A stretch of DNA of 64,000 nucleotides from Moniliella sp. 'wahieum' (Eukaryota; Basidiomycota; Moniliellomycetes; Moniliellales; Moniliellaceae): the NCBI GenBank assembly GCA_003971905.1, contig RSEE01000023.1:124001-188000 (forward strand), read 5' to 3'. Position numbers and translations under genes: made by a program. Below the pieces are notes generated by a model. That model saw nothing but the letters and a program-made list of their open reading frames with translations, had not been told where the DNA came from and searched no databases. Shown here in pieces: positions 29,503-35,526 of the stretch. The number at the start of each line of letters is the position of its first letter. Positions within the stretch are counted from its first letter, which is position 1.

Positions 29503-30240
29503 CTCACTGAGCCGAGAATCCATGTATTCCGCGGTGATTCTGTGCCCCCTCCGTGGTATGCCGTAGCTTGGATTCCGTGGCATACCGTGTTCATACCGTG
29601 TCTATACCGTGCCCATACCGTGCCCATACCGTGTTCATACCGTGCTCGTACCGTGTTCATACCGTGCTCGTACCGTGTTCATGCCGTGCTGGTACCGTGC
29701 TGGTACCGTACCTACTATACCGTGCTCGTACCATGCTCGTACCGTGCTCGTACCGTACCTATATCGTGTCCATACCGGGCCAATACCGTGCCTATACCGT
29801 GTTCATACCGTGTTGACTTCAAGGCGAAGGAATTGATTATGACGCTGAGCTTGTACAAAGGCAACGGAGCTACCGACGGTGGCACCGTCTTCAAGCGCGT
29901 TGAGGTCAAGGCCAACAAAACTCATCAGAGTTATCGGATGGACCGCTGGGAAGTGCAGGGGGTGCCAGCTCTACTCAATCCCGAGTTTGAAAAAGCCGTC
30001 CCGCGTAACCCCCGGTGCCAACTACTTGGCAGATGCCGATGACGGTGATGGTGGAGGGATACAAGTACTACTGGCACATGGTCAGTGAGAGCTACTGCTC
30101 AAAGTGCTTGGACACGGGGCACTCTGCTGCCAAAGGAGGATGTCCTTGGTCAAACGAAGCTGAGGTGGTGGTTAAAGCGACATCGCCCCCGGCTCCGAAG
30201 CCCGCAGTCAAAAAGAAGCCTGCGAAAAAAGGCCCGTAAA
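29503..30240 (+). mobile_element. Diverged transposon end plus zinc-knuckle-like ORF remnant
   Basis: Bases 29503-29562 are a clear relative of the 59-bp terminal repeat at 30552 (CTCACTGAGCCGAG, then GTATTCCGCGGTGATTC). They are followed by the same kind of 12-bp tandem array. Downstream, 29840-30239 encodes broken protein-like sequence: LYKGNGATDGGTVFKRVEVK, then EGYKYYWHMVSESYCSKCLD continuing TGHSAAKGGCPW. The C-x2-C-x4-H-x6-C spacing resembles, but does not equal, a CCHC knuckle. A Lys/Pro-rich tail (KPAVKKKPAKKGP) ends it. No matching right end was found before 30545, and the bases before 29503 do not match the GATCATG duplication. It is probably a truncated older copy. Confidence 0.5.
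29579..29812. repeat. 12-bp tandem array, CATACCGTGTTC type
   Basis: About 19 imperfect copies of a 12-bp unit built on CATACCGTGTTC / CGTACCGTGCTC. Because 12 is a multiple of three, all frames stay open, which creates long false ORFs. Confidence 0.9.
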
Positions 30241-30544
30241 AGGAGGGGCGAAAGGACCCGTGCGGTGGCTGCGTGAACAATGAGCAATATGTCGCTTAAC
30301 TGGTTTTGTGCGAGGGAAGACGGGAGGGCCCACGACCCTACCAGACGCCCAACCGAGCAGACTCCAGATGAAGGAGAACACGAGGGCTGAGGGAGGCCCT
30401 CAGGATGGGCACTGTTGAAGGCTACAGGGAGCGGCTGCGTGGTGCACAATCGCGCTGACCTGCGAGCATACTGTCCCTTAGACGTTAAACACTTACAAAT
30501 ACCCTATCTTACTATACTACAAAAATATGGATAATGGTCATGCA

Positions 30545-30551
30545 GATCATG
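30545..30551. repeat. Left target-site duplication GATCATG
   Basis: GATCATG directly precedes the left inverted terminus at 30552 and matches 35520-35526 exactly. Confidence 0.75.
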
Positions 30552-30610
30552 CTCACTGATCCGAGGCTCCAGGTATTCCGCGGTGATTCCGTACCCCTCC
30601 CGTGGTATTC
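30552..30610 (+). repeat. Left terminal inverted repeat
   Basis: It starts CTCACTGATCCGAGGCTCC and ends CGTGGTATTC. It differs from the reverse complement of 35461-35519 at positions 9, 34 and 48 only. Confidence 0.85.
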
Positions 30611-30647
30611 AGTAGTATTCCGTAGTTTGGATTCCGTGGCATACCGT

Positions 30648-31005
30648 GCCCGTTCCGTACTTCTCCCGTACCACTTCCGTACCTCTTCCGTACCTCTTCC
30701 GTACCACTTCCGTGCCCGTTCCGTACCACTTCCGTACTTCTTCCGTACCACTTCCGTACCACTTCCGTGCCCATTTCGTACCACTTCCGTACTTCTTCCG
30801 TACCACTTCCGCACCACTTCCGTGCCCATTTCGTACCACTTCCGTACCACTTCCGTACCACTTCCGTACCCATTTCGTACCACTTCCGTACCACTTCCGT
30901 ACCCGTTCCGTGCGCGTTCCGTACCCGTTCCGTACCCGTTCCGTACCTCTTCCGTACCTCTTCCGTACCTCTTCCGTACCTCTTCCGTGCCCGTTCCGTG
31001 TTCAT
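30648..31005. repeat. 12-bp tandem array, TTCCGTACCACT type
   Basis: About 30 imperfect copies of TTCCGTACCACT, with CCTCT, CTTCT, CCCGT and CCCAT variants in the second half of the unit. It lies just inside the left terminus of the transposon and keeps long false ORFs open on both strands. Confidence 0.92.
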
Positions 31006-33541
31006 ACTGTTGTATTCTATGGGATAAGTGCGCCCCTCCATCTTGAAAAAAAAGTGAGAACGAAATCCATAGACACACCACACAGGTTAGAATTTTTTTC
31101 AACCACGGAAACACCACAGAACTCCACGGGTTACCAAGGGTTACCACGGGTTACCACGGAATGGAAATGGCGTCCTAGGGTTACACTAGGGTTAGCTTAT
31201 AAGCCTTAGGGTTAGCTTATAATGCAATGTATCGGTACAGGGTTACATTGCTCAATACTTTGGGGGCCTATATGCGGCCCTCACTAGCCTCATTGGCAGT
31301 TGTGTTACTTTAGATCCTTTAGATATATGGGACATCTCTGTTGGGCTAATAGTGATTGTATTACTAAGGGTGCTACGGGAGGCAAGCAAGGCAAGGCAAT
31401 ACTGGTGGAGAAGATGCATCAGGCCTCAGGCCGTTAATCAGGGAAACGCAGCGTGAAGGCGCAACAGGAAGGGGCAGAACAGGCAGAATGGGGCCGCCTC
31501 GCGCGCAAGTTCCATCCACAGCAATCGATCGTACCGTTGCTTGATATCACAAATGGTGGCATGCTCCCTTTGACATGCTATCGGTAATTCTCACTGCGGA
31601 AGTACGGGTTAACATACCAAGCACATCAGAGGTTGATATATGATACCAACATGCATACCATGTAAGTCAGTGCCCAAGCATGTAAGTACCCACTTGTAGG
31701 AAGAGGTTAGTACCCAAGAAGCAGATCAGTACTCCCAGCAGGTCAGTACCAGCAGCAGGTCAGTATACCCAGCAGGTCAGTACACCCAACAGCAGGTCAG
31801 TACACCCAGCAGGTCAGTACACCTAGCAAAGACAGTACGGGGACGATTGGTTGGTCGCCACAGGACAGCAGGCATCAGTTGTTGAGATGCCGACAGATCT
31901 TTGGTTAGCACCTTACCCCAGTTTTGGTCTTCGGTTGGTCTGCAGGAAAGTGTGGAAATATTAGTGATAGGCATGTCGGGAAGGCGGTTGTTAGGGAAGA
32001 GGAGACCGGTGTGGAGGGGGGGAGGGGGGGGGGGGTATATATATCATTCAACTGTGAAAGGGGCGGTAAGAGGAGGACTGATGCAACAAGAGCAAAAGCA
32101 GTGTGGTTCTGGTGGGAAGGTGCACAGACCAGTAACGCCGACGCACGGACCCCCCACAGCTCAGCATATTAGCCCTGCGCTGTGCGTGTGGGAACAGCCC
32201 CTGGCAACCTCCGCAGCATACCCACACGCCACCGAGCTCCGAGAGCTCCTGGCGCCTCAAAGAGCTCTAAACGTACCATTTATTACGTCCCAACAGTCCT
32301 GCTGAGCCACCGGGTGGCCCGTGCTTTTGCCAACGTCCCTTCAGGTCCTCCTCAAGCCGGCCTAGGAGTTCCGTTTTGTTTCCTCCCTCCTGGTTGTCCT
32401 TGGTCCGCAGTTTTGCCCCTGGTGGCGACTCGCTGTCTGAAGCTTGATGCTCCTCTGTAGGGGTTGCTGGTTGACTTAGACCACCATCACCACCACCACC
32501 ATCAGTGCGATTGTATCACCCTCGAGGACCATCCAGACTCCAGGTTTCATCAAAAGTCCACCCATCCGAGGGCCGGCACATGTACGCTCCTGTGGAGTAT
32601 ATACTAGCCGTGTGCGATGCGGCAAAATGAGGCCCCGGGAACGTCCGCGGAGCTCCAAAGGAGTACATATCACCCTCTGGCCCTCATGATGGTCCACTCT
32701 CCACGTCTTCGCCAGGTTTTCCCCTCGGTCCTCTCCATCATCATGTCCGCCTCCTGGTCCGCCCCCTGGTCCGCCCCCTGGAGTCGTTTACTCTCTTCAG
32801 ACCACGGTAATGTACAACATCGCTGACGCTAAAGCACAGCAAGCACATCTATGGCAAGTGTGTCCGGCGAGCGAGCGTGCCGCCCTTGCGATATTGTTGG
32901 GCGCAAGAGGCATGGGGTGGGGTATATTGGCCAACGACACAATCCCTCTGAAATTTGCCCGCTGCTGGGCGACGGAAGCGATGATATTGATACCATCCAT
33001 TCTCCGTTGCGCATACCCGAAGACTGGGTCAACTGCAGAGTACACACGCACAAGAGCTTGAAGACCATGGGTCAGTCGCAAGCCAGAATTTTTTCAAGGC
33101 AGATACAGGATGGCCGACATTACCTCAACCTGAAAGCGCCTCTCATCATCATATGTGCCCTTCCTTTCATCCTGTTGAGCCCATGCACACCACCTTTCTC
33201 AATCTGAGAAGAACGGTCTACGTGATCCAAGATTGCCCATACATTTGGGTGCCGCCCATGTTGACCTTTTTAACGAGTTTCAGATGAAGTGTGCGTCCTC
33301 ATTCCCGAAACAGTTGTGTTTCTTATACTGATTGAATGAGCTAACCTTGAAACACAGGTCGATTAGGTTTCTTCCTTCTTCGTTTTGTAGTGGAGTGCCT
33401 CGTTCGATTGGTTCTGCTTGTAACAGCGGCATGCGCATGTTTGAGATTGCAGTCATATGAGTTGCATGCTTTATCCGTTCGTCAAGTTGCATTATCTGCC
33501 TCAGCAGATACTCGATCTGGGGAGCGTGATGCTTAGGCTGT
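31006..33541. other. Left interior of the transposon, no intact gene
   Basis: It contains telomere-like TAGGGTTA words (31173-31223), a minisatellite (31721-31830), a long G run followed by TATATATATC (32010-32045), an ACCACCATC microsatellite (about 32480-32505) and repeated CTGGTCCGCCCC (32753-32780). Protein-like stretches occur on the plus strand at 32810-33060 and on the minus strand at 33280-33600, the latter Gln/Arg-rich. No transposase motif is evident. Confidence 0.45.
31721..31830. repeat. Minisatellite CAGCAGGTCAGTACACCCA
   Basis: About six imperfect copies of a 16-22 bp unit with the core GCAGGTCAGTACACCCA. Confidence 0.85.
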
Positions 33542-34700
33542 TTGTCAACGGAAAATGTATGCTGCCGACGTCGAACGTCTCCGAACAACGGCCCTGCCAT
33601 TTTGTCAACGGTTTCACGACTTCACTGTTCCAAACGGTCTGAACGAAGAGATCAACCACATTCGATCTCGGTGCACAACACTCTTCATTGGGCTGACAAC
33701 ATGTGGAGATACGGCAATTGGCAGGCGATATGGACCGCCCCGGCAGAATGGGAACAGGGATGGTTGGGCCGCCATATCCGTTCGTTTACCAAACCGTATC
33801 CTGTCCTTGCTAACGAGGCGAGCAGGAGGAACCAGGATAACTTGGTTGGCATTCGCATGGATTCCATGCTCCCCCAAGCTATGACCACACTTTCGGTTGG
33901 GTTGAATCACAAACGAGAAGCTATTATTGATGGGCTCGATGGTGCAAGGGGGGATGCGGCGTTGCTGTGCTCGTTCAACATTGACCCTACCGCCCATTTA
34001 TCGATCTGGGCAGTAGCCGAGTGGGGGCCAAAAATGAGAACAGGCAACGTGTTCGAGGGCAACAGGGTCAGAATGCCTCGTCCCGTCTAGGACACTGTGT
34101 GCAACTACTCACAACAAATGCAGGCATTGTATAGCAATTGGCGCACGATGGGCACTTTTTCATGTTGATTGACTACTACATTGGGGTGGAGACCGATGAA
34201 GCGGGCTCCGAATACTACATTGTTGGTAGAACTCATCCGATTGATGCTGAAGGTAATGCGTCTCTACCACGCGATGAACAAGGCTTTCACAGAGCGACGT
34301 TCGCATCAGTAAACAACATTGTCGTCCCACTTGCCGACATTGGGTGGGTCATGGGACACATACCCTTGAGAAGGAAGTTCTGAGTTCGGATGCATTAGCA
34401 CGAATTGCAGCGGATGACGACGTTTCTGACGAGGAGGTTTGGATTTACCCTCACCCATTGGGTGCCGAACTTGGTGTCTGACAAAAAACACTATAAGTGT
34501 TGCGTGTGCCAAGGTACATTTTATTCCCGAGGAAAAGAGAAGGGAAAACAATATGCGTGCTGCCTTTGTTGGGTACTGTTTTGTTGGTGAAACGAAACGG
34601 AAATCAAATGGAGATCGGCATCAGAAATGCACAGTGGAACTGGAAGCTATCAAGCACTGGGATCGATCGAAGACGAAGGCTCACGAGCAGAAGCTGTTGG
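33542..34700 (+). pseudogene. Fragmented protein-coding remnant inside the transposon
   Basis: Four successive plus-strand pieces look protein-like but fall in different frames with stops between them. 33542-34090 is Trp-rich (MWRYGNWQAIWTAPAEWEQG). 34138-34383 has HFFMLIDYYIGVETDEAGSE and NNIVVPLADIGWVMGHIPL. 34405-34590 has YKCCVCQGTFYSRGKEKGKQ then YACCLCWVLFC, two Cys pairs resembling a zinc ribbon. 34590-34705 is Lys/Glu/Arg-rich. A C-terminal Cys-pair module after a beta-rich segment would suit a transposase tail, but I cannot match it to a family. Since other genes here also carry frame changes, this may be an intact gene seen through sequence errors. Confidence 0.35.
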
Positions 34701-34936
34701 CATAGGTGCAAAAGAGACACGCAGAAGACTGCTATTGTAGGTGTATAAGGTGCTAAGCGCTCTTAGCCTTGAAAAGGATTGAGTGAGAGTGCTGCTGCCC
34801 TTTTGCACTCTACCATTTTTTCTCCAAGCCCAACGCCGGGCTAACGATTCTTCTTCCGAGTGTGCTCCCAAGTCGCACGCTCGCAAGTGTCAGTGTTGGC
34901 GAAGGGGGAACGGTGGCTAAGGTGGCGAAGGTTCCA

Positions 34937-35239
34937 CGGTGGCTACGGTGGCGACCAAGCACCAGCTGGGGCTTCGCGTCGGCCCGGTGGTCTCCTTGTG
35001 GGTGATAAAATCCTCCAGCGTGGAACGGTGGGCCGGTGGCTACGGTGGCGAGCAAGCACCAAGCACCAAGCTGGGGCGAAGCCCCAGCTGGCCGGGCCGT
35101 AGGCCCGGTGGTCTTCTAGTGAAATTTCATTACTTGATTGCCAGGTCGAAATTTTTGCACGCTCGCAAGTGTTGCTCTTTCTCAACATTTCATTGCAGTA
35201 ATGAAATTTGATTACCGATTGCCAGGTCGAGATTTTTGA
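34937..35239. repeat. Direct repeats and strong hairpins near the right end
   Basis: CGGTGGCTACGGTGGCGA, followed by AAGCACC, an AGCTGGGGC block and GGCCCGGTGGTCT, occurs at 34937-34994 and again, expanded, at 35034-35114. The second copy holds a perfect 9-bp hairpin with GAA loop (35069-35089). A second pair, GATTGCCAGGTCGAAATTTTT and its relative, lies at 35121-35157 and 35203-35239. ACGCTCGCAAGTGT also occurs twice. Confidence 0.75.
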
Positions 35240-35460
35240 GCCTGACTCTTTCCTTGAATTTCTAGCCGCCTCGCAAAACCCACCACGGAACACTCCGACA
35301 TACCGCGACATGGCACGACATGTCGCGGACTACCACCACATGTCGCGGAATACCACGGAACACCACAACATACCACGGAACGAAAAAAAGATCAAGACCC
35401 GATGGCCACGAAATGACACGGATTCACCACGACATACACGACATACCACGACATACTACG

Positions 35461-35519
35461 GAATACCACGGAAGGGGTACGGAATTACCGCGGAATACCT
35501 GGAGCCTCGGCTCAGTGAG
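35461..35519 (-). repeat. Right terminal inverted repeat
   Basis: It ends CTCAGTGAG at 35519. Reverse-complemented, it matches 30552-30610 with three mismatches. ACCACGGAATAC-type repeats lie just inside (35280-35475). Confidence 0.85.
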
Positions 35520-35526
35520 GATCATG
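35520..35526. repeat. Right target-site duplication GATCATG
   Basis: It directly follows the right inverted terminus and is identical to 30545-30551. Confidence 0.75.

Follow-up and report, generated by a model that had tools for sequence, protein, structure and literature searches.

A probable cut-and-paste transposon family with 7-bp target-site duplications in Moniliella sp. 'wahieum'

Introduction

A 64-kb stretch of DNA from the basidiomycete fungus Moniliella sp. 'wahieum' (assembly GCA_003971905.1, contig RSEE01000023.1, positions 124,001 to 188,000; the whole stretch is called the window below) contains a 4,968-bp element bounded by terminal inverted repeats (TIRs) and a perfect 7-bp target-site duplication (TSD). 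An earlier note, made from the letters of this stretch, had read the element as a fairly recent cut-and-paste insertion of unassigned family. Does it belong to a family that moves, where does it insert, and which kind of transposase could have moved it? We searched the 69.5-Mb assembly that contains the window (its contigs are labelled with C-numbers, and the window lies on C23) and found copies with shared ends, 7-bp TSDs, a preference for TGATG, and homologous sites that do not hold the insert. Our data indicate, with a probability of about 0.88, a recently mobile family of cut-and-paste DNA transposons that is represented in this assembly by non-autonomous or decayed copies.

Results

The element occupies window positions 30552 to 35519. 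Its 59-bp TIRs, at 30552 to 30610 on the forward strand and at 35461 to 35519 on the reverse strand, differ at exactly three of the 59 positions; the left one begins CTCACTGATCCGAGGCTCC, and the ends of the element read CTCAC..GTGAG, with CTCACTG at the start. The heptamer GATCATG adjoins both ends (30545 to 30551 and 35520 to 35526). The whole inverted match found by a repeat search is 84 nt long at 88% identity (30546 to 30629 against 35442 to 35525) and includes six bases of each TSD.

The assembly holds five full copies, on C23 (the copy in the window), C11, C34, C35, and C29, with lengths of 4,849 to 4,970 bp. Their identity at ungapped aligned columns is 99.17 to 99.73% in all 10 pairs; by BLAST, which counts gaps and arrays, the window copy is 96.4 to 98.3% identical to the other four (the alignment with the C11 copy begins at element base 168). 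Outside the tandem arrays described below, many of the differences are one-base indels that each occur in a single copy. This pattern suggests long-read assembly error, and some frame breaks may be artifacts. The same left end is found at five other loci, those of the four further full copies and that of a sixth copy on C149, which is broken inside the 11-bp array and continues into other sequence. Because the same ends bound four more full copies and begin one broken copy, the inverted repeat is not a chance structure. Shorter or partial relatives comprise a 378-bp miniature inverted-repeat transposable element (MITE) on C20 and a 173-bp mini-copy on C38, both two-ended; a relative on C66 that has the interior (93% identity over 1,622 columns) and the right end; and left ends without a recognized right end on C4/C16 and on C8/C23 (window position 29503; C23b below). 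Pattern searches with the end (17 matches) and with an inner core (15 matches) gave no locus beyond these. Both patterns tolerate few changes (neither detects, for example, the right end of C34 or the C66 end), so more diverged relatives may exist.

A perfect 7-bp TSD is present at five of the seven two-ended loci, and its sequence, in the element's direction, is GATCATG at C23, GTTGATG at both C34 and C35, CATCAAC at C29, and GATGATG at the C20 MITE. To describe the target, we counted insertion sites by eye (n = 11, with C4/C16 and C8/C23b each counted once) and defined a core as TGATG at positions 3 to 7 of the 7-mer or CATCA at positions 1 to 5, that is, in either orientation. Eight of the 11 sites contain this core: C34, C35, C29, C20, C11 (left), C66 (right), C38 (left), and C4/C16 (left). 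It fits 172 of the 63,994 7-mers of the window, and the binomial chance is 4e-19 for eight of 11 sites and 2.6e-10 for four of the five loci with perfect TSDs; the motif was picked after looking, which by our estimate weakens these values at most several thousandfold. In both orientations, insertion favors TGATG, of the GTTGATG type.

Homologous loci without the insert were recovered by querying the genome with the joined flanks of the copies (the best 40 of 712 candidates were scored and then aligned). Among the five full copies, four have such a locus, and the MITE does as well: C46 for C35, C53 for C29, C54 for C11, C8 for C23, and copies of a dispersed repeat for C20. For C34, there was no homologous site among the best 40 of 712 candidates. 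C46 has a single CATCAAC and no insert where C35 carries the element, and it is a clean pre-insertion site. The junction of the C20 MITE is crossed by at least 25 copies of the dispersed repeat without the insert; among the five that were read, four carry a single GATGATG and one carries a single GATGACG. No break occurs in the insert-free sequence of C46, C53, or the repeat copies at the positions of the TIR edges. Since four of the five full copies are missing from loci that are 88 to 96% identical, and the copies themselves are more than 99% identical at ungapped columns, the insertions probably took place after the homologs had split.

Pairs of homologous contig segments (C4/C16, C8/C23, C29/C53, C35/C46, and C11/C54) have 88 to 96% identity. 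Their sequences suggest that the assembly contains two haplotypes or duplicated regions.

One of the insert-free loci may record an excision. In C29, the element stands between GTTGATG and GTTGATGACAC; the homolog C53 reads GTTGATGCATGATGACAC. Instead of a GTTGATG on either side of the element, C53 has GTTGATG CATGATG, which can be parsed as the left TSD, a CAT that is palindromic to the preceding ATG, and the right TSD minus three bases. Footprints with such P nucleotides, formed when excision proceeds via hairpins, are described for Ac/Ds (PMC5873905), and the C53 scar fits hairpin-type excision.

These results bear out much of the earlier note. The TIRs with three mismatches and the GATCATG at both ends are confirmed on the sequence, and cut-and-paste insertion holds, with the same boundaries at the other copies, a recurring 7-bp duplication, and insert-free homologous sites. 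The full copies and empty sites that it had proposed to collect are in the genome (five, with insert-free loci for four of them and for the MITE), and the flanks give the 7-bp length at five of the seven two-ended loci. Likewise, fairly recent activity, which it had derived from the near identity of the two TIRs, agrees with full copies that are 99.2 to 99.7% identical at ungapped sites and with the insert-free loci. What the note had not observed are the preferred target and the possible hairpin scar.

Much of the element consists of repeats. Inward of the left TIR, an 11-bp unit (TTCCGTACCAC) is repeated about 31 times in an array (30653 to 30999, forward strand), and subterminal repeats of about 10-bp units (ACCACGGAAT type; 35286 to 35470, reverse strand) lie in inverted orientation to it at the right end. 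Telomere-like TAGGGTTA stretches were read at 31174 to 31215 on the forward strand. In the broken C149 copy, the break and the non-element sequence that follows, which ends in TTAGGG repeats at the end of the contig, were read over stretch positions 1 to 779; because of this TTAGGG contig end and the element's own telomere-like stretches, the element may there have been a site of chromosome healing or exchange. Tandem repeats of 17 bp that differ among copies occupy 31704 to 31828 (forward strand), and a dispersed repeat of about 240 bp lies at 32300 to 32553. The latter is abundant in the genome, with at least 34 matches elsewhere at 81 to 84% identity (among the best 40 of 852 candidates), and its other copies that were read mostly begin TGTTGAGCCA and end TCATCA. 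The interior from 33325 to 34928 (forward strand), which corresponds to the C66 relative at 93% identity, contains broken open stretches at 33530 to 34090 and 34135 to 34383 that look like a decayed gene end and have no Pfam assignment. It is followed by a short repeat module (34897 to 35157), parts of which are found again on C1 and C44. Rfam gave no match in the whole 64-kb window at its gathering thresholds.

The second left end in the window (29503 to 29812) lies about 1 kb upstream of the element and is common to the homologous C8 segment. The open stretch immediately before it presumably encodes a serine-carboxypeptidase-like protein, judging from its translation. Another open stretch between the two elements (30085 to 30250) has a CCHC-like zinc knuckle and is a gag-like candidate. 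Beside the left end on C4/C16, Pfam recognized ordinary genes in the 10 stretches scanned, for mitochondrial ribosomal protein L46 and ribosomal protein S7/S5, and no transposase.

Does any copy encode the enzyme that moves it? Pfam scans covered 10 of the 50 stop-to-stop stretches of the window, 8 from other copies, and the 10 beside the C4/C16 left ends; a further scan covered 96 stretches of at least 55, 75, and 50 amino acids from C34, C29, and C66, respectively, with the whole C8 and C38 loci outside these scans. On the element, there were scattered weak matches only (best E value, 0.0054), and the 96 stretches matched 17 families, each in at most two stretches and none a transposase. The earlier note had seen no recognizable DDE/D motif in the interior; no transposase was recognized in the stretches scanned from the window copy or from other copies. 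At the level of the genome, profiles for KDZ (PF18758) and Plavaka (PF18759) found nothing and also matched none of 14 control genomes, DUF4218 (PF13960) found nothing and matched one control below the cutoff, and MULE (PF10551) found nothing and matched four controls. The hAT dimerization domain had two matches below the cutoff (E values of 0.04 and 0.05, with one stop each) and matched no control. Because controls were matched in only 0, 0, 1, 4, and 0 of 14 cases, we do not claim the absence of these transposase families, save weakly for MULE. One of the two hAT-like stretches is on C13. The other, on C69, was compared with the element ends over 2.5 kb, and its sole match, of 11 bases with two mismatches, does not extend as a TIR.

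The broken frames at about 33560 to 34480 matched only the family itself and C66 when the genome was searched with them, and in a scan of viral contigs, the three stretches that matched by pattern included no relative. Structure models of two window stretches, made without an alignment, reached predicted local distance difference test (pLDDT) scores of 29 and 62; the latter model, of 82 residues and low confidence, had its best PDB fold match at an E value of 1.2 and none below 1. Between C66 and the long copies, we counted 18 non-synonymous and 10 synonymous codon changes (203 codons in three segments, with 3 gapped codons set aside), and this comparison gave no clear sign of purifying selection on the frames. 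A likeness to clostridial toxin was rejected: in a PDB sequence search, 43 residues of the C66 frame had five matches (whole-sequence E values of 0.0002 to 0.45), four of them to repeats of this toxin, but no single stretch passed, and because the query is a short YY/G-rich stretch, we take the matches as chance.

Discussion

A recently mobile cut-and-paste family accounts for nearly identical copies with the same ends in different surroundings, and the finding is well replicated within the genome and recent. How would such elements move? We hypothesize that a transposase acts in trans, one that is absent from the assembly or was not recognized, and that it would bind the CTCACTGA ends and probably also the subterminal CCGTA/CCGTG repeats. 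The element would be cut out and inserted where a TGATG-like site has been opened with a 7-bp stagger. Excision may leave hairpin flanks that are opened and rejoined with palindromic filler, as one scar suggests. Mobilization in trans is something that we infer only, since no transposase was found.

Several observations weigh against this interpretation. To begin with, no transposase was recognized in the Pfam-scanned stretches. Two of the seven two-ended loci are without a TSD, C11 (CCTGATG / TATCATC) and C38 (CATCAAC / CGTGAGC); in the first case, a flank deletion can account for the loss, because in the homolog C54 the two flank matches lie 66 bases farther apart. Three of the 11 insertion sites lie off the target core, namely, C23 (GATCATG), C149 (ATTGAAC), and C23b (GATGAAG, which at C8 is separated from the left end by two more bases, CT), and six of the 11 have a single readable flank or flanks that disagree. 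Among the insert-free loci, the match of C46 stops about 47 bases beyond the junction, and about 10 bases that flank the site in the empty repeats are missing from the filled C20 copy. At C8, the homolog of the window locus does not qualify as a clean empty site: 5,487 bases are gone compared with an insert of 4,968, about 520 flanking bases being gone as well, with 32 others in their place. The scar at C53 is a single case in a homolog of 88% identity, where a local duplication with substitutions could have produced it.

The ends of the C11 copy (C11:228240 / 233090) adjoin CCTGATG and a reversed GATGATA, two target-like sites with a spacing of 66 bp in the homolog. This arrangement resembles a joining of each end to a site of its own; a deletion after insertion would explain it more simply.

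With its clear target motif and its homologous sites free of the insert, this defined family offers a good starting point from which to seek the partner transposase in related fungi. Should that partner come from a clade that is not known to make duplications of 7 bp, the link now accepted between the class of a transposase and the length of its duplication would have to be widened. In addition, a site-selective fungal transposon could be of use as a tool.

Could the locus be something other than a transposon? The genome does contain homologous segments, such as C4/C16 (95% over an 8.5-kb alignment) and C8/C23 (94 to 95%), so segmental duplication or a chance inverted repeat has to be considered. 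However, among the matches listed (best 40 of 712), none links the 250-bp flanking sequences of one full copy with those of another, the 7-bp duplications differ in sequence among copies, and C46, C53, and the repeat copies run on without a break where the TIR edges would lie, all of which refutes this explanation and leaves it next to no probability. The transposase class is less easily settled. It is possible, though we consider it unlikely, that a KDZ transposase moves the element, which would then be a non-autonomous KDZ member near Kyakuja. The 7-bp TSDs of Kyakuja in Agaricomycetes (PMC12730594) and the KDZ1 to KDZ3 elements of Cryptococcus, described with TIRs of 139 to 241 bp and TSDs of 4 to 8 bp (PMC12810828), speak for it. 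The Kyakuja families described in the former account have CA..TG ends and no TIRs, whereas our element has 59-bp TIRs that start with CTCACTG. The KDZ profile found nothing, but as it matched none of the controls, the absence of KDZ is not shown. A hAT transposase cutting with a 7-bp stagger, with the element as a non-autonomous hAT7-type member, appears slightly more doubtful. The ends of hAT elements usually begin with YARNG, which CTCAC does not fit; no hAT match occurred in the element among the Pfam-scanned stretches, the hAT-like stretch on C69 is not tied to the element ends, and two genome matches below the cutoff came from a profile that matched no control. In its favor are the 7-bp TSDs reported for hAT7 of Pucciniales (PMC12730594) and the palindromic scars reported for Ac/Ds, a hAT element, which have the same form as the C53 scar (PMC5873905).

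An aberrant CMC element (CACTA/EnSpm/Plavaka) with a 7-bp duplication seems improbable. In its favor, each end has CACTG two bases in from its edge, and there are numerous subterminal repeats. The frames at about 33560 to 34480 may also resemble the C-terminal part of fungal CMC transposases, a likeness to which family, fold, and PDB searches lent no support: the frames had no Pfam transposase match, the 82-residue model had no PDB fold match at an E value below 1, and purifying selection was not clear. Neither PF18759 nor DUF4218 matched, with the control results given above, and the CMCT clade is described with TSDs of 2 to 5 bp and mostly CA..TG ends (PMC12730594), neither of which is seen here. 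Still a little less probable is a Mutator/Foldback-type element with composite ends of tandem repeats. Inverted arrays of 10- to 11-bp units at both ends, together with long TIRs, recall the Foldback-like Tm1, but the TSDs described for Tm1 are mostly 8 to 10 bp, commonly 9 bp, without a clear target preference (PMC3169594), compared with 7 bp and a strong preference here, and the MULE profile found nothing in this genome while it matched four of 14 controls. On a par with the CMC explanation in its low probability is a fungal lineage of its own, defined by the CTCACTGA ends, with an unrecognized or strongly diverged transposase that targets TGATG, a 7-bp TSD, and excision with hairpins on the flanks, for which the frames at about 33560 to 34480 would be the remains of the cognate gene. 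We recognized no paper as describing these ends in a literature search that did not use the end sequences themselves as text.

How does the family compare with known systems? The most likely answer, to return to the cut-and-paste family, is a small unnamed family of an already known type whose partner transposase is missing or unrecognized here. Galileo, of the P superfamily, also makes a 7-bp duplication; it is an animal element, and P transposases were not specifically searched for here. According to Kojima (2025), TSDs are 7 bp long in Kyakuja and hAT7, 8 bp in Zisupton and a Dileera family, 6 bp in IS3EU, and 2 to 5 bp in the CMCT clade (PMC12730594). The earlier note, for which 7 bp was not the standard duplication of the common fungal families, needs qualifying in that this length does occur in known ones, Kyakuja and hAT7. 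With CMCT elements (CACTA/EnSpm, Plavaka), the element shares the CACTG core near the end and the subterminal repeats and differs in its TSD length and in the lack of a transposase domain in the scanned stretches; with Foldback/Tm1-like Mutator elements, it shares ends made partly of short tandem units in inverted orientation and differs in its 7-bp TSD and marked target preference. Kyakuja is alike in making a 7-bp TSD as a fungal DNA transposon and unlike in its ends, and no KDZ match was found. hAT7 is alike in TSD length, with a scar form known from the hAT element Ac/Ds, and unlike in its ends, and no hAT transposase was detected in the scanned stretches. Because 7 bp agrees with Kyakuja and hAT7, the end structure of Kyakuja differs, no transposase was found for either, and the TSD lengths of CMCT and Tm1 are different, we class the family only as a cut-and-paste TIR transposon and assign it to no superfamily; by TSD length, the KDZ/Kyakuja-like and hAT7-like readings agree best.

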